From Bacteroidota bacterium (GTDB lineage Bacteria; Bacteroidota; Bacteroidia; Chitinophagales; Chitinophagaceae): a DNA stretch of 64,000 nt. Below the pieces are notes generated by a model. It did no database searches. It saw only the letters and a list, made by a program, of their open reading frames with translations, and had not been told where the DNA came from. Shown one piece after another: positions 1 to 36,639 of this stretch (position 1 is the first letter of the stretch; each line of letters starts with the position of its first letter). The position numbers were made by a program, and so were the translations under genes. Location of the stretch: the NCBI GenBank assembly GCA_023422835.1, contig JAFAGI010000025.1, forward strand, positions 162,351 to 226,350, given 5' to 3'.

Positions 1-280
1 CGTTAAATTTATCTATGGCATAGCCCAGGAAATACCACGCTTCCGGGTTGCCTGGATTAGCAATGGCATACTTTTCCAGTGCAGCGCCCACATCCGTAAA
101 ATCAACCTCTTCCCGAGCATTGATTTTTCTGCGCATCTTTTCTTTAGCACGATCAAAGTCTCGGCGCGACTCTTCCTGCTGCGCAAAAGAGCCATTGACA
201 AAACAAGCCAGCAACAGCAGAACTGTTACTTTTTTTAAAAATGATGATATGAAATAGCCATAAGCAAAGTTGCATACCAA
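1..280 (-). CDS. Secreted TPR-type protein, N-terminal part (runs off left edge)
   Basis: Reading the minus strand gives an open frame with a classic signal peptide (SSFLKKVTVLLLLACF, then NGSFAQ as a likely cleavage region). A charged segment follows, then a TPR-like stretch (AIANPGNPEAWYFLGYAID) that reaches position 1. The protein is probably exported; nothing beyond TPR-type packing can be inferred. The start is uncertain: no ATG precedes the signal peptide in this frame. The only standard candidate is TTG at 278-280, which makes an overlong N-terminus. The best-looking signal peptide would begin at an ATA codon at 248-250. The gene starts inside a copy of the hairpin repeat described below, which here lies in the opposite orientation to the gene. 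Confidence 0.7.
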   Translation of the reverse strand, partial: MVCNFAYGYFISSFLKKVTVLLLLACFVNGSFAQQEESRRDFDRAKEKMRRKINAREEVDFTDVGAALEKYAIANPGNPEAWYFLGYAIDKFN

Positions 281-348
281 CCGTGAATGAGTAATGGCTA
301 TTCTATGTGGCCATAAAGAAAAAATAAAATAAATACACATGAAATGCC
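246..348 (+). repeat. Dispersed hairpin repeat, single copy plus extra arm
   Basis: Plus-strand copy of the repeat found in front of dnaN. The 5' arm (ATATGAAATAGCC, 248-260) pairs with GGCTATTCTATGTGG (296-310). The loop contains GCATACCAACCG as in the dnaN copy. An AT-rich spacer nearly identical to the dnaN copy follows, then a second 5' arm (CACATGAAATGCC, 336-348) that touches the 3' end of purD. The 5' arm holds ATG-AAA-TAG at 249-257. It lies between two minus-strand genes, so relative to them it is inverted compared with the dnaN and 21.3-kb copies. Confidence 0.75.
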
Positions 349-1760: not shown

Positions 1761-3527
1761 ATGCTACACCAAAGCAATGATCTTTTCAAGACCAAAGTGC
1801 TGGGACACCCTGCCGGATTATTTGTATTGTTTTTTACTGAAATGTGGGAGCGTTTTTCTTACTATGGTATGCGCGCGTTACTGATATTATTTTTTACTGC
1901 TTCCGTTCTGGGAGAGCATCCCGGATGGGGCTGGTCCAGAGGCAATGCATTGGCCTTGTTCGGTTCGTACACAGCGCTGGTGTACCTGTCTACCATGCTG
2001 GGAGGGTACGTAGCAGATAATAAGATCGGCTACCGCAAATCGGTTATTCTCGGCGCATTCCTGATGACGCTGGGACACGCTTCCATGGCCGTTGAAACCC
2101 CGTGGTCTATCTACACAGGGCTTACCTTACTGGTGTTCGGCACAGGTTTTTTTAAGCCTAATATGACCTCGATGATCGCGCTGATGTACAAAGACCACCC
2201 GGAAAAGAAAGACGGGGCCTACACCATATTTTATATGGGTGTAAACGCTGGCGCTTTTTTCGGCATACTGCTTTGTGGTTACTTGGGCGAAAAAGTCGGC
2301 TGGAGCCTGGGCTTCGGTCTTGCGGGTATATTTATGCTGTTTGGACTGTTGCAATTTTATTTTACACAAAATATATTTGGAAACATCGGTTTAAAACCCG
2401 GCAAAATAGAGAAGGGCGCAGATGATACTCAGGAAGCTGCCGAGCATGACCCCGATAAGCGCGTGCCGTTCCCTGGCTGGCAGCTGGCGATCATTGGCCT
2501 TTGTTGTGTTATCGGTTTGGTGTGGATCATCAACGATCCCGTATCAAAGATCTCTGATGGCAGGATAAACTTCCTGAGATTTAATATATTCGGGCTTGAC
2601 GGCGCAGACTTCACCATTCTCACCGGGCTTGCATTGTTCTTCTTTCTGCTCTTTTACAGGCTGGGCAAATACTCGTTTATAACAAGGCAGCGGTTGTATG
2701 CAGTCACCATTTTTGCAAGCTTTGTATTTGTGTTCTTCGCCATTTTTGAACAGGCGCCGGGCACGCTTACAATTTTTGCCAAAGACTATACCAACCGCGT
2801 GCTTGAAGGCAATGCAGGGCTTATTTTTAAAATAGTCAACTCGCTGATCGCGGTGGTGCCGCTGGGTATCATCACCTGGGTGCTGATGTTGCTGTTCAGG
2901 CAAACGTTTAAAAATTATGCGCTGGGCAATATTATACTCAGTTGTAGCTTTATCATTATCTGGGGTATTACGTTATGGATGGTAGTGCGTGAATTCAGCG
3001 TAGAAAAAACCGAGGTGCCTGCCTCGTGGTTCAGTATATTAAACTCCCTGTTCATCATTACCCTGGCGCCGTTATTTTCAAAAATATGGGAAAGCCGTTT
3101 CAACCCGCCGGCCAATGTGAAGTTTGGCGTTGGCCTTATTTTGTTAGGTGTGGGCATGGCTGCACTGGTAGTGGGGGCAAGGCATATCCCTGCGGGGGCC
3201 AATACGGCTGCCGTGAGCATGATCTGGCTGGTACTGGTGTACTTGTTTCATACCATGGCGGAATTGTGCATTTCTCCGGTGGGATTGTCGTATGTAAGCA
3301 AGCTTGTACCGGCAAGAATGATTGCGTTTATGTTCGGTGTGTGGTACCTCGCTGTAGCTATTGCCAATAAGGTTGCAGGCATACTGGGAGAAAACGCCGT
3401 AGAGATAGCTGCTAAAGACGGCATCAGTTATTTCTTCCTGATCATTACCGTGGCTGCTGTCATCATCGGTTTTATTGCCATTTCGCTGACACCGGTGATC
3501 AGAAAGCTGATGCATGGTATAAAATAA
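1761..3527 (+). CDS. POT/PTR2-family proton-coupled peptide transporter 1
   Basis: Inner-membrane major-facilitator protein importing di- and tripeptides with protons (family knowledge). The POT signature EMWERFSYYGMR (ExxER motif, needed for proton coupling) is near residues 27-38. The second PTR2 signature region (FYMGVNAGAF) is near residue 155, and AELCISPVGLSYVSKL lies near the C-terminus. Hydrophobic segments fit 12-14 membrane helices. At 588 residues it is the longest of three adjacent paralogues, mainly through a longer central loop with a charged segment (EKGADDTQEAAEHDPDKR). The next gene starts 86 bp downstream on the same strand. Substrate preference cannot be read from the sequence. 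Confidence 0.93.
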   Translation: MLHQSNDLFKTKVLGHPAGLFVLFFTEMWERFSYYGMRALLILFFTASVLGEHPGWGWSRGNALALFGSYTALVYLSTMLGGYVADNKIGYRKSVILGAFLMTLGHASMAVETPWSIYTGLTLLVFGTGFFKPNMTSMIALMYKDHPEKKDGAYTIFYMGVNAGAFFGILLCGYLGEKVGWSLGFGLAGIFMLFGLLQFYFTQNIFGNIGLKPGKIEKGADDTQEAAEHDPDKRVPFPGWQLAIIGLCCVIGLVWIINDPVSKISDGRINFLRFNIFGLDGADFTILTGLALFFFLLFYRLGKYSFITRQRLYAVTIFASFVFVFFAIFEQAPGTLTIFAKDYTNRVLEGNAGLIFKIVNSLIAVVPLGIITWVLMLLFRQTFKNYALGNIILSCSFIIIWGITLWMVVREFSVEKTEVPASWFSILNSLFIITLAPLFSKIWESRFNPPANVKFGVGLILLGVGMAALVVGARHIPAGANTAAVSMIWLVLVYLFHTMAELCISPVGLSYVSKLVPARMIAFMFGVWYLAVAIANKVAGILGENAVEIAAKDGISYFFLIITVAAVIIGFIAISLTPVIRKLMHGIK

Positions 3528-3613
3528 TTTTGAGAATGTATTAATTATTTTTAAGCATTTAATACTATCTTGCGAGATATTTTAAATTTTAACTGTTTTT
3601 AATATAAATATTT

Positions 3614-5026
3614 ATGACACAGGAATTGGAAGTAATGGATAATGTGGACGCAGAAGCAAAAACAAAGAAAGGTCATCCGAAAGGATTGTACCTTTTGTTT
3701 TTTACAGAAATGTGGGAAAGATTTTCTTACTATGGCATGCGCGGTATTTTGATGCTTTATCTTACCAAAACCTGGCTTGAAGGCGGCTTAAGTATTGACC
3801 CTCAGCACGCGAGTCTCATTTACGGCTTCTTTACCGGTTTTGTTTATTTTACACCCCTCATTGGCGGCTGGCTTGCAGATAAATACCTTGGCCAAAGAAA
3901 AGCAATATCCATTGGCGGTATCGTAATGATGCTTGGGCAGTTGGTGCTATTTGCTATCAACACCCATGCAGGGCTTTACTTCGGGCTTGTTCTGCTAATT
4001 ATAGGAAATGGCTTCTTTAAACCCAACATTTCTACCATGGTTGGCGGTCTGTATGCTGAAGGCGATAAAAGACGCGATTCTGCATTTTCTATATTCTATA
4101 TGGGCATTAACCTCGGAGCCTTCATGGCACCACTTATAATAGGCTATCTGACTGACGAACTTTTTTCTACCAGGAACGCAGGTGGAGAGATCATCAGCTA
4201 CGGGTACAGGTACGGGTTCCTCGCTTCTGCCATCGGCATGCTGCTTGGCCAGTTAATGTTCAATACCATGGCTAAGAAATATTTAGGTGAATTAGGCGTG
4301 AAACCGTTAGGCTCTAAGAAGAATCAGGCTGTAAACAATTTGGGCGAAAGTTTAACCCAGCCGCTGAATAAAGTAGAGAAAGACAGGATCGGTGTGATTT
4401 TCATTTTTTTCTTTTTTGCCATTTTCTTCTTTGCAGGATTTGAGCAGGCAGGCTCATCACTTACTTTGTATACAGATAAATTTATAGACAGAACGGTTTT
4501 TGGCGACTTCACAATACCTACCGCCTGGTTCCAGAGCGTGAATCCACTATTCATCGTGCTGCTGGCCCCTTTGTTTGCCATCCTGTGGCAAAGCGATCTT
4601 GGCGGGCGTTTATCAACCCCTATTAAAATGGGTTCAGGGATGATAATCCTGGGCATAGGCTTCTTCTTTATGCTCGGCGCTGTAGCCGAGAGAGGGGGAG
4701 ATATTGATGACCCTTCCATTAAAGCAAGTATCTGGTGGCTGGTGCTTACATATCTTACACATACCATAGGTGAGCTTTGTTTATCACCTGTAGGCCTTTC
4801 TGTAGTTACCAAATTATCCCCACCCAGACTCGCTTCTTTATTAATGGGCGTGTGGCTGCTATCATCGTTCTTTGCTAATATACTTGGCGGCTTTCTGGCT
4901 TCTTATGTAGAGGCATTGGGCGCAGGTAAAATATTCCTCTACATTTCTATTTTTGTGATCGTGTGTGGTGCGGCAATGATAGCGCTGAACAAAAAAATAG
5001 TTAATATGATGCACGGTGTGAAATAA
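3614..5026 (+). CDS. POT/PTR2-family proton-coupled peptide transporter 2
   Basis: Second of three tandem POT paralogues, 470 residues. It has the ExxER motif (EMWERFSYYGMRGI, about residues 33-46), the PTR2 segment FYMGINLGAF, and the late GELCLSPVGLSVVTKLSPPRLASL motif split over two helices. An N-terminal hydrophilic tail of about 20 residues (ELEVMDNVDAEAKTKKG) precedes helix 1. It is closer in sequence feel to transporter 3 than to transporter 1, including the shared KLSPPRL motif. A rho-independent terminator directly follows, so transporter 3 probably has its own transcript. Predicted to import small peptides; specificity unknown. Confidence 0.93.
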   Translation: MTQELEVMDNVDAEAKTKKGHPKGLYLLFFTEMWERFSYYGMRGILMLYLTKTWLEGGLSIDPQHASLIYGFFTGFVYFTPLIGGWLADKYLGQRKAISIGGIVMMLGQLVLFAINTHAGLYFGLVLLIIGNGFFKPNISTMVGGLYAEGDKRRDSAFSIFYMGINLGAFMAPLIIGYLTDELFSTRNAGGEIISYGYRYGFLASAIGMLLGQLMFNTMAKKYLGELGVKPLGSKKNQAVNNLGESLTQPLNKVEKDRIGVIFIFFFFAIFFFAGFEQAGSSLTLYTDKFIDRTVFGDFTIPTAWFQSVNPLFIVLLAPLFAILWQSDLGGRLSTPIKMGSGMIILGIGFFFMLGAVAERGGDIDDPSIKASIWWLVLTYLTHTIGELCLSPVGLSVVTKLSPPRLASLLMGVWLLSSFFANILGGFLASYVEALGAGKIFLYISIFVIVCGAAMIALNKKIVNMMHGVK

Positions 5027-5050
5027 TTGATTAATTTACTCTTGAATTTT

Positions 5051-5080
5051 AAACCTCCTTTATTTTAGGAGGTTTTTTAT
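5051..5080 (+). terminator. Intrinsic terminator after POT transporter 2
   Basis: AAACCTCC and GGAGGTTT form a perfect 8-bp stem around a 9-nt A/T loop and are followed directly by TTTTAT. It separates transporter 2 from transporter 3, whose ATG is only about 20 bp beyond. Confidence 0.8.
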
Positions 5081-5099
5081 TACCCAAAATAACAAAACC

Positions 5100-6680
5100 A
5101 TGCACAGAGAAACTCTGGAAGAAATTCAATCTTTTGAAGGGAAATATCCCAAACAACTTTGGCACCTGTTCTTTTCAGAAATGTGGGAGCGCTTTTGTTT
5201 TTACGGTATGCGCGGCATGCTCACCTTCTTTATGGTGCACGAACTTTTTATGAAAGAAGACCAGGCTAACCTGCAATACGGCGCTACGCAGGCTTTCGTG
5301 TACGCTTTTACTTTCATCGGCGGCCTGTTCGCGGATAAAATATTAGGCTTCCGCAAATCTCTTTTCTGGGGAGGCATACTAATGATAGCAGGCAGCCTGA
5401 TACTGGCAACCGACCCGCATAAATTTTTCTTTCTCGGCATCAGCGTTACGGTAATAGGCACCGGTTTCTTTAAGCCTAATATTTCTACTATGGTGGGTCA
5501 GTTGTACAAAGACGGCGATCCAAGAAGAGATGCCGGTTTCTCCCTTTTTTACACAGGCATTAACCTGGGCGCTTTGCTCGGCGGATACGTTTGTGTGGCA
5601 GTGGGAAAAGGCACATTGCTCGGAGGCGTAATCCCTGAAAATATCCGCTGGAATATAGCTTTTGGCTTTGCAGCAGTGGTGATGACCATCAGCCTGATCA
5701 CTTTTATATTTACTAAGAGGCATTTAGGCTCTATAGGCCTTGCTCCTGAAAGAAAGAAAAAAGTGGTTGATTATGGCGCTATTGGCAATAACCCTGAACA
5801 GGATCCAGTAGCCATTTCCCTTGAACCCGGAAGAAAGAAATTTAACGTGCCTGCCATGCTGGTATATGCAGGTTCCCTGCTGGCAATACCCGTTATTATG
5901 AAAATGGTAGCTACGCCGCAGTATACAGATTGGTTTATGTACATCATCGGACCGGCCACGCTGATCTTTCTTTTCTACGAAATGACCAAGTGTACCAAAC
6001 CTGAAATAAAAAGATTGTTTGCAGCGCTGATCTTCATAGCTTTTTCTATTGTCTTCTGGGCATTCTTCGAACAAAGCGGTGGATCCCTAAGCCTTTTTGC
6101 AGCCAACAATCTCGACGATAAGTTGCTGGGCTTTATCCCGCTGGACCCTAACGGCGTTAACAACTCTGCCAACGCTTTATTCGTAATTATTTTTGCGTGG
6201 ATGTTCGGGCTCGTCTGGCTCGCACTTGCCAAAAAGAGAAGAGAACCCAATACAGTGGTAAAGTTTGGCATGGGCTTCCTGTTCTTAGGGCTCTCTTTCC
6301 TGATGCTGTTCGGTACAAGGTTTTTCCAGGTATCGCCGGGCATTGCAGGGCTTGACATGTTTACACTTGCTTACCTGGTAATGACCTTCGGCGAGCTGTG
6401 CTTATCCCCTATTGGCTTGTCTACCATGACCAAACTTTCTCCCCCCAGACTGCAGGGCATGATGATGGGCATGTGGTTCCTGGCAAGCGCTTACGGGCAG
6501 TATGTTGCCGGGCTTTTAGGCGCAGGCATGGCAAAAGCCAATGAGAACGGCACGCTGTTAGAAAAGCTGATCGCTTATACAGAAGGCTACAAACAATTGG
6601 GCATTTATGCGATCATAGCCGGGGTGATACTGATAGCAATTTCACCATTGGTAAGAAAATTAATGCAGGGAGTGAGATAA
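5100..6680 (+). CDS. POT/PTR2-family proton-coupled peptide transporter 3
   Basis: Third tandem POT paralogue, 526 residues. The signature reads EMWERFCFYGMRGM: the ExxER residues are kept, but the usual YY is FY and a Cys is present. FYTGINLGALLGG and FGELCLSPIGLSTMTKLSPPRL match transporter 2. A positively charged loop (ERKKKVVDYGAIGNN) lies mid-protein. The inner-membrane peptide symporter role is known for the family. Three adjacent members with differing loops suggest diversified peptide range rather than simple dosage (inference). Confidence 0.93.
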   Translation: MHRETLEEIQSFEGKYPKQLWHLFFSEMWERFCFYGMRGMLTFFMVHELFMKEDQANLQYGATQAFVYAFTFIGGLFADKILGFRKSLFWGGILMIAGSLILATDPHKFFFLGISVTVIGTGFFKPNISTMVGQLYKDGDPRRDAGFSLFYTGINLGALLGGYVCVAVGKGTLLGGVIPENIRWNIAFGFAAVVMTISLITFIFTKRHLGSIGLAPERKKKVVDYGAIGNNPEQDPVAISLEPGRKKFNVPAMLVYAGSLLAIPVIMKMVATPQYTDWFMYIIGPATLIFLFYEMTKCTKPEIKRLFAALIFIAFSIVFWAFFEQSGGSLSLFAANNLDDKLLGFIPLDPNGVNNSANALFVIIFAWMFGLVWLALAKKRREPNTVVKFGMGFLFLGLSFLMLFGTRFFQVSPGIAGLDMFTLAYLVMTFGELCLSPIGLSTMTKLSPPRLQGMMMGMWFLASAYGQYVAGLLGAGMAKANENGTLLEKLIAYTEGYKQLGIYAIIAGVILIAISPLVRKLMQGVR

Positions 6681-13747: not shown

Positions 13748-14869
13748 CTAATAATTATTATTGAGCATCAAAGGCATTATCAGCATCAGCAGGTCTTCGT
13801 TTTCGCCGTTTTCAGTGGGTTTCAGCAGGCCGGCCTTGGTTGGTGTAGATAGTTCCATTTTTATATCTTCAGTTTCAACCACGTTGAGCATATCTGCCAG
13901 GAACTTAGCGTTAAATGCTATCTGCAGGTTTTCGCCTGTGTATTGGCAGGCCATTCTTTCGTTTCCTTCAAAACTAAAATCAATGTCCTGCGCTGCAAGC
14001 TGCAGTTCATTGCCGCTGATGGTAAAAGCTACCTGGTTAGTGCTTTTGTTGGCAAACACATTTACGCGCCTCAAAGCATTCTGAAAATCCTGTTTATTTA
14101 CCGTAAGTATATATGGGTTATCTGCAGGTATCACCACCCTGTAATCCGGAAAACGCGCGTCTATGAGGCGGCAGGAAAGCTGCAGGTTCTTACTGGCTAC
14201 AAAAAAGTGCTTATCATTAAAGCTGGCCTGCAATTCCTCGTCATTGTCTGCCAATACATTTTTAAGGATGTTCAATGGCTTACGCGGCACGATAAAGCTG
14301 GCGTTCTCCTCTACTTTTACATCGCTTCTTTTGTACTTCACCAGGCGATGTGCATCGGTAGATACAAAGTGTGCGTACTCAGGTGTGAGCTCAATGAAAA
14401 CCCCTGTCATCGCCGGTCGCAGGTCGTCTGTGCTGGCGGCAAACAGTGTTTTATTAATACCTGTAAGCAGGGCATTGCCTGTGATGGAGAAGTGCGTGGC
14501 ATCTTCTTTAGAGGGCTCTTTGGGAAAATTGTCAGCATTTTCACCCATGATCTTAAACTTCCCTTTTTCACTGGTGATCTCAATGCTGTTGTGATCGTCT
14601 ACCATAAAAGCTATGGGCTGGTCAGGGAATGTTTTAAGCATGTCCAGTAATATCTTGGACGGTATGCACACCCTGCCGGTCTCTGAGCTTTCTATCTCCA
14701 CATTGATGCGCATTACAGTTTCCAGGTCTGTTGCTACCACACTAAGGTTTTTATTATTGATCTCGAAAAGAAAATCTTCCAAAATCGGCAATACGGTATT
14801 GGTGCTGATAACGCCGCTAATCTGCTGCAAATGCTTTAACAAAACAGAAGACGAAACAATAAATTTCAT
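13748..14869 (-). CDS. dnaN: DNA polymerase III beta subunit (sliding clamp)
   Basis: Ring-shaped processivity clamp of the replicative polymerase. The 373-residue protein has the three-domain beta fold. It starts MKFIVSSSVLLKHLQQISGVI and contains AATDDLRPAMTGVFIEL and STDAHRLVKYKR. The conserved C-terminal end LLMLIMPLMLNNNY fits the usual MPM/MRL ending. The start codon lies inside the terminal motif of the adjoining hairpin repeat array (ACACATGAAAT), which would form its leader. No dnaA is seen nearby, so this is not an obvious origin region. Confidence 0.96.
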   Translation of the reverse strand: MKFIVSSSVLLKHLQQISGVISTNTVLPILEDFLFEINNKNLSVVATDLETVMRINVEIESSETGRVCIPSKILLDMLKTFPDQPIAFMVDDHNSIEITSEKGKFKIMGENADNFPKEPSKEDATHFSITGNALLTGINKTLFAASTDDLRPAMTGVFIELTPEYAHFVSTDAHRLVKYKRSDVKVEENASFIVPRKPLNILKNVLADNDEELQASFNDKHFFVASKNLQLSCRLIDARFPDYRVVIPADNPYILTVNKQDFQNALRRVNVFANKSTNQVAFTISGNELQLAAQDIDFSFEGNERMACQYTGENLQIAFNAKFLADMLNVVETEDIKMELSTPTKAGLLKPTENGENEDLLMLIMPLMLNNNY

Positions 14870-15180
14870 GTGTGTATATTTAATTGTTTTTCAGTTGTCA
14901 CATGGAATAACTCTGGTTTTTAGATTCAATACTCATTCCCGGTTGGTATAAATACTTAATCTTTATGGTTATTTCATGTGTATTTATTTTATTTTTTCTT
15001 TATGGCCACATGGAAATAGCCTTTATTCATACCACGGTTGGTATGCAACTTTGGCTTATGACTATTTCATGTGTATATATTTAATTTTTCTGTTTGCCAC
15101 ACGGAATAACCATTTTTTAGATTCTATACTCATTCCCGGTTGGTATAAATACTTAATCTTTATGGTTATTTCATTGGTAT
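14870..15180 (-). repeat. Three tandem hairpin repeats with MK-stop minigenes upstream of dnaN
   Basis: Three imperfect inverted repeats separated by AT-rich spacers of about 25 bp: 14899-14980, 15007-15073 and 15098-15177. On the dnaN strand each starts with a 5' arm near CACATGAAATA and ends with a 3' arm near TATTCCATGTG. The inner arm bases change together: AAC/GTT in the first and third, TAG/CTA in the second. Each 5' arm contains ATG-AAA-stop, at 14969-14977 (TAA), 15062-15070 (TAG) and 15166-15174 (TAA). The first and third units are almost identical to each other. The next 5' arm in the series is the dnaN start codon itself. Confidence 0.85.
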
Positions 15181-19667: not shown

Positions 19668-21326
19668 CTATTTTTTGCCTTTAAGCATGTTATTTAACTG
19701 CTCCACAGCCTGCTTGGCGCCTGCATTTTCAGGATCCAAAGCTACGATCTTTGCAAAGTAATCTCTTGCGTTTGCATAGTCTTTTTTCGTATTAGCATAG
19801 TAATCTCCTAACAGGTAGTATTCGTAGATCAGCGTCTGCTTGTTGGATGCTTCATTAATCCTGGGCTCAAGATAAGCAATGAAGTTTTTAATATGCGGCA
19901 ACGCTAATTCTTTGGTAGAATCCTGTGCCAGTGCGCTTTGCTGAAGATAGTAATAAGCGAACATATCTTCGGGATATTTGCTTTTCAGTATAGTGTATAA
20001 GCTGTCTGAAAGCTTGTACTGCCCTGCTTTGAAAGCTGCATCTGCGTAAGATACCATGCCTTTATCAGAGATTTTCTTACCTGCATAGATTCCCTTTAAC
20101 CATTGGAATTTTTCAGCAGGCTTGTTCGCTTTATCATAAGCTACAGAGATAGAGTCAATATATCTTTCCCTGAGATAAACTGCCGTGTCCATCTCATAAG
20201 CTTTTTTCAGGTATTCAACAGCACGCATCGCTTTGGTAGAATCTTCCTTTAAAATATACCCGGCGCTTGCATAATCCTGTCCGTGGATGCTTGATGCAGG
20301 AGCTACTTTAAAGTATGCGTCTACAGCGGCAGCAGCTTTATCGCTTTGTCCCAGCCTGTGGTAGCTCTTAGCCAGCAACATATTTACGTCGGGGTATGAG
20401 CGGCACTCAGAGTTTAGCATTTGCTGCGCCTGGTTAATTGCTTCCTGGTATTTACCGGATACGTAAGAAAAATCTGCCTGGAAATATTTGGTATCACAGC
20501 TTTGTTCAGCCACTCTAACAAACTGATCCAAAAACTCTTTCGCTTTGTTTACATCATTTTCCCTGAAATATTCAAAGTAGGTGAGGTAAGGTGCAGCGAA
20601 GTTAGGATCTGCGGAAATAGCTTTTTGGTACCACTCATTCATGGCCTGGTAGTTAGCCTGGCTCTGGTACATTACACCGATCCTGTAGGGGGCCAATGCG
20701 AAGCCAGGATTTCTTGTAAATGCTGTATTGTAAGCCTGGTAAGCCTTACCGCCGTTTTCACCACCTTGTTTCAGGTAGTTCATACCGAGATAGATACCGG
20801 GGTAGGGGTTGCTGTCATCCAATTGCATTGCCTGCTCCAGCAAAGGAATTACATATGCAGGATCACCCTGGTCGCCATCACCGTGAGAGCTTGCGCGGCC
20901 TATGGCTGTATATATTTCTGCCAGGTTTTTGCCTTTGTCTCTTTTCTTAGACTTGTCACTTATAATTTTGATAGCCTGCTCAAATCTTTGTTTGGCAGCA
21001 TTCTTATCTTTTGTTACTAAATAGTCTGTATTACCCATACCTACCAGCAACCAAGGATCGCTTGGATTTGCTGCCAATGCTTTCTCATACAAGGCTCTTG
21101 CCTGTTGAGGCCCGTCGGGCATTGCCAGGTTCTGGATCATTGTCTGGCCTAACCAGTAGATTGCCTGGGTGTTTCCCGGTTCTTTATTTGCAATCTGTTG
21201 AAAAATATTTTTAGCTGTATTGAATTTAGAATAATATACAGCCTGGATACCTTCATCGATTGATTGGGCAACTGCTATAGAAAAGCTCATAGCCAATGCC
21301 AAGAAACTAAAAAGGATTTTTTTCAT
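19668..21326 (-). CDS. Secreted TPR-repeat protein
   Basis: Signal peptide at 1-20 (KKILFSFLALAMSFSIAVAQ), then tandem tetratricopeptide-like helices through most of 552 residues (for example AIYWLGQTMIQNL, WLLVGMGNTDYLV, GIYLGMNYLKQG, YYLLGDYYANTKKDYANAR). Periplasmic scaffold, partner unknown. A small membrane protein and a PstS-like lipoprotein lie upstream on the same strand. In Bacteroidota such TPR and PstS-like genes often sit with ExbB/ExbD genes, which here are 0.5 kb away on the other strand. Its ATG is embedded in the 5'-arm motif of the hairpin repeat (ACACATGAAA), as for dnaN. Confidence 0.85.
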   Translation of the reverse strand: MKKILFSFLALAMSFSIAVAQSIDEGIQAVYYSKFNTAKNIFQQIANKEPGNTQAIYWLGQTMIQNLAMPDGPQQARALYEKALAANPSDPWLLVGMGNTDYLVTKDKNAAKQRFEQAIKIISDKSKKRDKGKNLAEIYTAIGRASSHGDGDQGDPAYVIPLLEQAMQLDDSNPYPGIYLGMNYLKQGGENGGKAYQAYNTAFTRNPGFALAPYRIGVMYQSQANYQAMNEWYQKAISADPNFAAPYLTYFEYFRENDVNKAKEFLDQFVRVAEQSCDTKYFQADFSYVSGKYQEAINQAQQMLNSECRSYPDVNMLLAKSYHRLGQSDKAAAAVDAYFKVAPASSIHGQDYASAGYILKEDSTKAMRAVEYLKKAYEMDTAVYLRERYIDSISVAYDKANKPAEKFQWLKGIYAGKKISDKGMVSYADAAFKAGQYKLSDSLYTILKSKYPEDMFAYYYLQQSALAQDSTKELALPHIKNFIAYLEPRINEASNKQTLIYEYYLLGDYYANTKKDYANARDYFAKIVALDPENAGAKQAVEQLNNMLKGKK

Positions 21327-21390
21327 GTGTATTCTTTTTTTTAATTGTTTCTGTTTGCCACATGGAATACGCTTATGGTTATTTCATGTG
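21327..21390 (-). repeat. Hairpin repeat with MK-stop minigene upstream of the TPR gene
   Basis: Short-loop version of the dnaN-upstream repeat. On the gene strand CACATGAAATAAC (21378-21390) pairs with GTATTCCATGTG (21359-21370) around a 7-nt loop. The minigene ATG-AAA-TAA is at 21379-21387. A 32-bp AT-rich spacer then leads to the gene's own start, again preceded by ATACAC. Confidence 0.8.
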
Positions 21391-29206: not shown

Positions 29207-30400
29207 ATGAAACTATCGTCCATACTCGACAGGTTCGCTGAACCTGAAACGCTAAAGATGGCAAAATTAGGACGCGAGCTACGCACGCAGGGCCACGATG
29301 TAATTGACCTGAGCCTGGGAGAACCAGACTTTGACACTCCTGAGCATATAAAGTCTGCCGCCAAAAAAGCAATTGACGACAACTGGAGCCATTATACTCC
29401 CGTGCCCGGCTTTTTAGACCTGCGCGAAGCGGTCTGCAACAAACTGAAGCGCGACAATCAACTGGATTATAAACCGGAAAACATAGTAGTTTCTACGGGC
29501 GCCAAACAAAGCCTGGCCAACGTGATCCTGGCATTGGTAGATGATGACGAAGAAGTAATTATTCCCACACCGTATTGGGTTACCTATTCTGAACTGGTAA
29601 AGATAGCGCGCGGGAAAGTAGTAGAAATAAGAACTACGCCCGAAGCTAAATTTAAAATCACACCAGAGCAACTCGAAGCCGCCATTACTCCCAGAACAAA
29701 AGCATTTTTGTTTTCTTCTCCCTGCAACCCTTCAGGGTCTGTATACAGCAAAGAAGAACTTGCGGGCCTGGCCGAAGTTTTTAAAAGACATCCACAGATA
29801 GCTATTATTTCAGATGAAATATATGAATACATCAATTATGTAGGCAGGCACGAAAGCATTGCGCAGTTTAGCGAAATAAAAGATCAGGTGATTATTGTAA
29901 ACGGCATGAGTAAAGGCTTTGCCATGACCGGCTGGCGTATTGGCTACACTGCCTCTGTACCTGAAATAGCCAAAGCTATGGAAAAACTTCAGGGCCAGTT
30001 TACCAGCGGCACCTGCTCTATTGCTCAAAAAGCATCTGTTGCCGGACTTACAGAAGACTTAGCGCCTACCATGGAAATGAGCAAACAATTTACAGAAAGA
30101 AAGAAAAGGACGCTTGAACTGGTGAGTGATATCCCCGGCCTGAAATGTGCTGAGCCTGATGGCGCCTTTTACATCTTCCCCGACCTGAGTGCTTACTACG
30201 GCAAAAAAGATCCTGATGGCAATGAGATAAAGGACTCTGCCGACCTGTGCATGTATATTCTAAACACGGCGCACGTATCCTCGGTGATGGGGGCAGCATT
30301 CGGCGAGCCCAACTGCGTACGCTTCTCTTTTGCCAACAGCATTGAAAACATTGAAAGAGCGTGGGCCAGAGTAAAAGAAGCATTGGCTAAGCTGAGTTAA
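29207..30400 (+). CDS. PLP-dependent aspartate-type aminotransferase
   Basis: Class I aminotransferase of the AspB/AspC group, 397 residues. PLP lysine K236 in NGMSKGFAMTGWRIGY. SLGEPDFDTPEHI (36-48), SPCNPSG (171-177) and SDEIYEY (202-208) are family motifs. Probably transfers amino groups between aspartate and 2-oxoglutarate; related members accept other substrates. The last 34 bp of near-terminal coding sequence (30354-30387) recur exactly at 36593-36626, behind the first SusC/SusD region. Confidence 0.93.
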   Translation: MKLSSILDRFAEPETLKMAKLGRELRTQGHDVIDLSLGEPDFDTPEHIKSAAKKAIDDNWSHYTPVPGFLDLREAVCNKLKRDNQLDYKPENIVVSTGAKQSLANVILALVDDDEEVIIPTPYWVTYSELVKIARGKVVEIRTTPEAKFKITPEQLEAAITPRTKAFLFSSPCNPSGSVYSKEELAGLAEVFKRHPQIAIISDEIYEYINYVGRHESIAQFSEIKDQVIIVNGMSKGFAMTGWRIGYTASVPEIAKAMEKLQGQFTSGTCSIAQKASVAGLTEDLAPTMEMSKQFTERKKRTLELVSDIPGLKCAEPDGAFYIFPDLSAYYGKKDPDGNEIKDSADLCMYILNTAHVSSVMGAAFGEPNCVRFSFANSIENIERAWARVKEALAKLS

Positions 30401-36592: not shown

Positions 36593-36639
36593 AAAGAGCG
36601 TGGGCCAGAGTAAAAGAAGCATTGGCAAAATTGCAATAA
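36593..36639 (+). pseudogene. Displaced 3' end of an aminotransferase gene
   Basis: Encodes RAWARVKEALAKLQ then TAA, matching the end of the aminotransferase at 30400 (RAWARVKEALAKLS). 34 bp are identical (36593-36626 against 30354-30387), and the last four codons differ at several positions. The stop and a CCTAACAG hairpin downstream are kept. It is a direct repeat flanking the 30.4-36.6 kb segment. Confidence 0.85.

Follow-up and report, generated by a model that had tools for sequence, protein, structure and literature searches.

A stretch of 64,000 nucleotides of Bacteroidota DNA (hereafter the window) holds short hairpin units, each with what appears to be a two-codon ATG-AAA-stop minigene, and we asked what these units are and whether the minigene is their working part. 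A preliminary description, made from the letters alone, had placed five units at three loci, and all five were found there. Three of them form an array on the minus strand in front of dnaN, which encodes the sliding clamp (13748..14869, minus strand) and bounds the array downstream with its start codon. The outermost insert U1 (15071..15174; 104 bp) has the 5′ edge ATGAAATAA and CAC as its last three bases, the middle insert U2 (14978..15070; 93 bp) has the 5′ edge ATGAAATAG, and the CAC end of the dnaN-adjacent insert U3 (14870..14977; 108 bp) abuts the dnaN start ATGAAA at 14869. U4 (21327..21387, minus strand) is a shortened insert of 61 bp with the loop mostly missing, and its downstream edge is the start codon ATGAAA of a gene for a TPR-repeat protein (19668..21326, minus strand). 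The 0.3-kb unit U5 (249..338, plus strand; 90 bp) is flanked by the 3′ end of purD and the 5′ part of its neighbour; both genes are on the other strand, so that U5 is not at a gene start. It is the only unit of the window without an obvious gene behind it.

The units follow a common layout, consisting of CACATGAAATA.. (or a close variant), a hairpin, ..TATTCCATGTGGC, an A-rich stretch and then CACATGAAA again, where the closing CACATGAAA of each A-rich spacer is at the same time the beginning of the next unit, the dnaN start (14869) or the start of the TPR gene (21326). The sequence ATG-AAA-TAA or ATG-AAA-TAG was read in all five units, as had been described, and the changes between AAC/GTT and TAG/CTA in the inner arms were confirmed to keep the pairing. 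The resemblance noted earlier between U5 and U2 amounted to 95% identity over 93 aligned bases, and a 45-base stretch of the two is 98% complementary in opposite orientation. This supported the initial view that the hairpins form a family, that their pairs covary and that units have moved from one locus to another. Beside U5 we also observed a gene for a secreted protein (window 1–243, minus strand; ..KKVTVLLLLACFVNGSFAQQEE..) that has no in-frame Met codon upstream of its signal peptide, even when the frame is followed far into U5. An in-frame TTG lies inside U5, and the gene may have lost its start or may use a non-ATG start.

The search of relatives with a covariance model that had been suggested for these units yielded further copies in many Bacteroidota genomes. 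Three models were used, namely R1, built from the five window units, R2, built from 28 copies including three of the window, and R3, a model of the right end containing none of the five. Within the window R1 gave E-values of 7e-19 for the middle dnaN unit, 2.6e-18 for the 0.3-kb unit and 2.1e-10 for the 21.3-kb unit and did not list the outermost and dnaN-adjacent units, while R3 listed all five at E 5e-10 to 6.7e-8, with the next match at E 0.7 and hence no sixth unit; the middle dnaN unit, missing from one match listing, is present in that of R3. By its dnaN, which is 53–70% identical to that of 26 genomes mostly labelled Chitinophagaceae, the window comes from a Chitinophagaceae-like bacterium. 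Among these 26 genomes, R1 at E ≤1 found related copies in 15, and 28 of the 35 copies read at that stage (five from the window and 30 from relatives) had the start of a frame of 60 or more codons at their end. With R2 at E ≤0.1, copies were found in 41 of 147 sampled genomes belonging to the family of one relative (G026), deep scans of seven genomes giving 49, 28, 19, 16, 13, 13 and 9 copies. R3 at E ≤1e-4 found the element in 25 of 395 genomes sampled across the phylum. All per-genome counts are lower bounds from a limited number of scored candidates, and the two wide scans, of 147 and 395 genomes, were run with stricter filters.

In eleven tested genomes of the 25 found by R3, G026 apart, dnaN was only 33–47% identical to that of the window, and most of the 28 copies from the phylum scan (one of them, L326, read at a wrong offset) had the same layout, 24 being followed by a frame of 50 or more codons; the family is therefore either old or widely transferred and spans distant Bacteroidota. 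In total, 190 model matches were reduced to 178 distinct copies and to 177 after setting aside L176, which has no aligned start. Their length was 56–126 bp with a median of 97, including an A-rich stretch of usually 22–26 bases. A corrected end-pattern scanner recovered 99 of these 177 known copies and was not used further. Since R2 and R3 include the start codon and the pairing described below, and some alignments of copies lean the same way, both models favour copies with these features, so the argument is carried by shuffles within genomes on held-out copies and, above all, by empty sites.

Mapping of the copies relative to start codons, likewise suggested at the outset, showed that in 156 of the 177 distinct copies the end of the element coincides with the start of an open frame of 50 or more codons, counting frames that run off the end of the fetched stretch as found, and that 173 of the 177 have ATG at the edge. 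For comparison, a crude gene call over 427,518 bases of the relatives and the window placed 541 ATGAAA sites within genes, 91 in intergenic DNA and 44 at starts. Of the 177 copies, 149 were followed by a frame of at least 100 codons, as against 44 start-like sites among the 135 ATGAAA sites outside genes, in what is a crude comparison. Copies at starts thus exceed the supply of non-genic ATGAAA, and the context of the target or the retention of copies should matter as well. Ten genes behind Lacibacter copies, when looked up, belonged to ten different families (acyltransferase, aminotransferase, glycoside hydrolase, GldB, PorP/SprF, TPR protein, 23S rRNA intervening-sequence protein, glutamine amidotransferase, RmlD-like reductase and OmpH), the copy that precedes the gene for a 23S rRNA intervening-sequence-type protein being L158 of Lacibacter cauensis. 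At the dnaN start of the 26 relatives no element was found, two of them (L010 and L019) holding only about 100 bases upstream, and dnaN begins with ATGAA in all 26.

The nature of the copies became evident from two related genomes, L. cauensis (G013) and L. luteus (G015), whose sequences around dnaN share about 84% identity. The sequence at one start codon is GCAAAAAAGT-ATGAAAGCAACTCC in L. luteus and GCAAAAAAGT-ATGCAATGGCC ... hairpin ... CAC-ATGAAAGCAACTCC in L. cauensis, in front of a gene that we take to encode a glycine cleavage T protein. Altogether seven empty sites were found in L. luteus for inserts of L. cauensis, five of them exact to the base at the left edge, and the insert lies between the old upstream sequence and ATGAA(A). 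Of the 19 L. cauensis copies in the set, three (L152, L154 and L157) had already been compared and L051 was left out; a joint search with the other 15 placed ten sites in L. luteus, of which six were empty (L153, L163, L103, L161, L159 and L156, the L159 pair judged without the start of its alignment), two held remnants (L089 and L165) and two were uninformative (L160 and L164). The empty site L161/L248 is not at a gene, and at L156/L245 the flank has diverged. Inserts at orthologous Lacibacter sites measured 99–121 bp. Two copies are common to both species (L152/L176 and L154/L090), the former visibly decayed in L. luteus.

In six of the seven cases the empty site has a different triplet before the downstream ATG, so in these six the triplet came with the insert; in the seventh the two triplets are equal. 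The triplet before the upstream ATGAAA, on the other hand, was that of the empty site in five of seven cases, with a diverged flank in the other two. The empty sites hence identify the ATGAAA of the apparent minigene and the ATGAAA of the gene as the two edges of one insertion; an empty site could also reflect precise excision. We consider it highly probable that the units represent a non-autonomous mobile element of about 100 bases, which inserts precisely at ATGAA(A), usually at the start of a gene, and occurs throughout the Bacteroidota. As for its mobility at start codons as such, we hold this with high confidence.

Two other explanations bear directly on these sites. If the copies were start regions that are AT-rich by chance or by shared ancestry, with no element involved, they would draw on A-rich regions and ATGAAA that are common at Bacteroidota starts, but E-values of R2 reached down to 1.5e-9 per genome, and the differences of 99–121 bp in presence or absence at orthologous sites refute this reading, which we regard as practically excluded. 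The second is a miniature inverted-repeat element (MITE) moved by a DDE transposase, with ATGAAA as target-site duplication. MITEs, for example Correia and ERIC, are small non-coding mobile repeats near genes, and the present element is like them in this respect; the ATGAAA at both edges and the scar-free empty sites would agree with such an origin. However, codon 2 of the gene is not AAA in 15 of 169 tabulated copies (beginning with AA in 167 of the 169), and the upstream edge still reads AAA in all 15. The 5′ edge is therefore borne by the element, and target-site duplication was rejected on these grounds; the requirement for the target is about ATGAA. Beyond the single hairpin there are, unlike in MITEs, no terminal inverted repeats to be seen, and the inserted triplet and its pairing partner covary, which a DDE element would not need, making this explanation quite improbable.

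For the mobile element, insertion has the following consequences. The old upstream region comes to abut ATGAAA and the hairpin (helix P1), followed by a hexamer CATnnn, the A-rich stretch, three bases nnn complementary to the hexamer and then the gene's own ATGAAA. The gene retains its start codon and would gain the A-rich stretch of the element as its translation start region, while the displaced start region now points at ATGAAA and usually at a stop within five codons, thereby giving rise to the appearance of a minigene. Tandem arrays, in which neighbouring units have one ATGAAA in common, would be the result of reinsertion.

The minigene, earlier taken to be the defining feature of the units, did not hold in that role, since its ATGAAA is the insertion target and far edge of the element and its stop is missing in many copies. 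The frame of the upstream ATG, read in 171 copies, met a stop after one codon in one copy, after two in 93 and after four in 34, thus ending within five codons in 128 of 171, with the stop at codon 3 or 5 in 127. By genome, the stop was kept in 37 of 43 copies in G026, 17 of 19 in G013, 13 of 14 in G015, 5 of 22 in G033 and 6 of 12 in G139. The usual stop TGA (62 copies read ATGAAATGA) coincides with a GA motif of the stem, and copies in which C precedes this motif have lost the codon-3 stop but not the element. The minigene was rejected as a selected feature, since its stop differs between subfamilies and its ATGAAA is accounted for by the insertion site. The bar minigenes of phage lambda consist of ATG, one or two codons and a stop, and the units resemble them in having ATG, a short frame and a stop, but their stop is not conserved and their ATGAAA is an insertion target. 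A drop-off minigene of the lambda bar type was accordingly rejected, given that a conserved short frame with a stop was not found (G033 keeping it in only 5 of 22 copies). The two-codon minigene is probably a remnant at the far end of the element and not a working part, and it may have a side effect on translation.

We found the hexamer at the 3′ side of the hairpin to be a partner of the gene's start. In U3 the hexamer CATGTG (14899..14904, minus strand) is complementary to CACATG (14867–14872) at the dnaN start, forming helix P2, for which the support is covariation in the family. In the alignment of 28 copies, the hexamer paired with the nnnATG of the gene in 166 of 168 cells (158.2 when shuffled; none of 20,000 shuffles as high) and with the nnnATG of the apparent minigene in 148 of 168 (146.5 when shuffled; p 0.23). 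Helix P2 ended sharply, the next pair on one side being possible in 1 of 28 copies and that on the other side in 4 of 28. In 67 copies, 94.8% of its cells were paired, with 37 two-sided changes compared with 11.7 in shuffled data, and G-U pairs at the G of the start codon occurred in 18 of the 67. Shuffling within genomes, with 160 copies usable on both sides, gave 447 of 480 paired cells for the gene-side triplet as against 404.2 expected (none of 5000 shuffles as high) and 272 of 480 as against 261.6 for the triplet on the flank side, i.e. before the ATG of the minigene (107 of 5000 as high). Tandem arrays may account for this small flank-side excess, since the flank of a copy is there formed by the end of another. 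In the 135 copies held out of the training of R2, the gene-side triplet was paired in 374 of 405 cells as against 336.2, again with none of 5000 shuffles as high. For the hairpin itself, P1, 82% of the cells were paired and three of its six pairs had two-sided changes. By eye, many copies of G033 had CATGAG opposite CGAATG, which would make two adjacent G.A pairs, and a similar GA motif, TGAGCC with GGCGAA, was seen in the hairpin stem of several subfamilies.

A helix over a start codon naturally suggests a cis-acting RNA device, in which the hexamer would either pair with the 5′ arm or sequester the real start, with translation of the minigene deciding, and which would have spread as a regulatory module. 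In favour of this, the start codon lies within helix P2, which covaries with the bases around it, either pairing precludes the other, the upstream frame is as short in most copies as noted above, and G-U pairs are frequent at the G of the start codon. The pairing stops exactly at the ATG, however, and P2 was fully paired in 13 of 18 copies lacking a frame of at least 50 codons, about as often as in the 148 copies having one (116), so it is independent of a gene. The loss of the minigene stop in many copies of some subfamilies, the unrelated nature of the ten downstream genes looked up, and the decay without compensation in one genome of a copy shared by the two Lacibacter species also speak against this explanation. 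The near-equal pairing in copies lacking a gene weakens a start-codon-sequestering regulator as the primary function, and we consider the RNA device unlikely.

Returning to the mobile element, we also read its layout on the antisense strand. There the order is the target TTTCAT, three bases, a T-rich linker, a guide, the hairpin and again TTTCAT, with the guide at the 5′ foot of the hairpin being the complement of the three bases and then ATG. Such a layout could serve a single-strand transposition like that of IS200/IS605 or REP elements, with the enzyme supplied in trans. When the antisense strand was folded as single-stranded DNA, the young copy L153 formed both hairpins (-15.9 kcal/mol, z -5.65) and the main hairpin appeared in U2 (z -3.74) and U5 (z -2.12), with U1 (z -0.35) and U3 (z -0.51) folding no better than shuffles. 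Those parts of PMC6006769 that deal with IS200/IS605 elements describe the cut as placed by a guide just 5′ of the hairpin foot together with the target flanking the left end, some of the interactions being non-canonical. As in the ends of such elements (IS608 and ISDra2) and their non-autonomous derivatives, a guide 5′ of the hairpin foot here pairs with a target beside the left end, a fixed short target is kept and not duplicated, as seen from the empty sites at ATGAA(A), and some copies apparently have non-Watson–Crick (G.A) pairs. Unlike them, the element has one hairpin instead of two and has yielded no transposase at the loci examined, three bases of its six-base guide pair inside the element and only three in the target, and the target is the antisense of a start codon. 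We hold the single-strand route with moderate confidence, and for a mover of the Y1/HUH type the chances seem to us slightly below even.

We looked for such an enzyme, finding no transposase gene inside or between the element ends at the loci examined. R2 run over 30 Y1 loci gave nothing significant (best E 0.24), and by eye the flanks of 20 of these loci and the stretch around L234 had other palindromes in most cases, the inspected loci being a part of the Y1 genes in these genomes. Y1_Tnp was present in 29 of 41 genomes with the element and in 68 of 106 without it (Fisher p 0.56), giving no overall co-occurrence with PF01797; a post-hoc cut-off at 8 or more copies gave 9 of 9 against 88 of 138 (p 0.028). 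The inspected Y1/RAYT genes were thus rejected as the source, given the blank search, the other palindromes and the lack of overall co-occurrence. The genome G139, a single contig of 4.1 Mb, holds eleven copies, with near-equal scores, of an IS200-type Y1 gene with a frame of 145 amino acids. Three fetched copies share a common right end unlike that of the studied element, and this repeated gene was also rejected as source on the basis of that end, the only one fixed by the comparison. At L219 (G020), positions ~1162–1301, a Y1 gene adjoins a tandem array of ~45-base units of the type TTCGTAGAATAATTTCATCCCGATGGGAT, which is a different REP-like family. In a search for autonomous copies, at least 26 right ends were seen by eye, among the matches listed, to have no full-length R2 match. 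Twenty regions covering 22 of those right ends were fetched, and a left edge ATGAAA was seen by eye within 130 bases in 11 of them and ATGAAG in a twelfth; in the other eight no upstream open reading frame looked transposase-like as judged by its first residues.

These results also bear on whether the units are simply an ordinary, uncatalogued REP family that belongs to a Bacteroidota RAYT (TnpA_REP) and has an unusual foot, which would be a sub-case of the mobile element and overlaps with it. Like REP sequences, the units are short dispersed hairpins with tens of copies per genome, found as singletons and tandem groups, and they have subfamilies with compensating stem changes and, when read on the antisense strand, guide-like bases at the 5′ foot. 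According to the available portion of PMC6006769, RAYT subclass 2.6 occurs mainly in Bacteroidetes and its repeats are atypical, which would suit this explanation. However, the element has no GTAG or CGTC tag, reading CATnnn and ATGAAA at the foot in the alignments, is about 100 bases long instead of 20–65 with its A-rich spacer, inserts exactly at ATGAA(A) starts and has no RAYT gene between the ends found so far, besides the other palindromes next to most inspected RAYT genes and the absence of overall co-occurrence. The exact start-codon target does not appear in that same portion of PMC6006769. Known REP repeats are of the GTAG and CGTC types, families without such tags probably occur and CGTC repeats seem to have no dedicated transposase, as far as the partial text of PMC3733652 goes; in the last respect the element, so far without a dedicated transposase, is like the CGTC repeats. 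On balance, we find an ordinary REP family a rather doubtful possibility.

Comparison with Rfam gave no matches in the window and, over the array, four matches at E 2–4.8, far below gathering scores, and titles and abstracts of open-licence papers yielded no description of such a start-codon-targeting element. We place the element among the dispersed hairpin mobile elements, as a new variant.

The composition of the insert is also of interest with regard to the genes it precedes. Its spacer was 64% A, compared with 40% A in the host flank before insertion. Translation in Bacteroidota is generally taken to start at A-rich regions without Shine–Dalgarno pairing, so the insert might well replace the start region that it displaces. 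Going further, we tentatively envisage a phylum-wide class of mobile DNA specialised on start codons, which would read antisense TTTCAT by means of a six-base internal guide, spare the gene, be moved in trans by a new or heavily modified enzyme and tune genes by its leader hairpin. Being handed a complete A-rich start region before its retained ATG, the gene would remain functional, and the element could for that reason accumulate even before essential genes such as dnaN. Most mobile elements damage their landing site, which this one apparently avoids by landing at a start codon and bringing a new start region. Host promoters upstream would then transcribe a leader with a hairpin masking the start codon, through which the element could tune genes, and many Bacteroidota genes would gain such leaders, a matter of consequence for annotation, for gene expression and for the way 5′ regions evolve. 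Which enzyme reads ATGAAA is a question made directly testable by the empty sites and the covarying guide.

Two further repeats were observed in the window. A 37-base direct repeat with 97% identity occurs at 30354–30390 and 36593–36629, located in the 3′ part of a plus-strand open reading frame and the 5′ part of one listed on the minus strand. Finally, three consecutive open reading frames at 1761–6680 have a common stretch near their 5′ ends (83 bases, 64–76% identity to the first) and look like a tandemly amplified gene.
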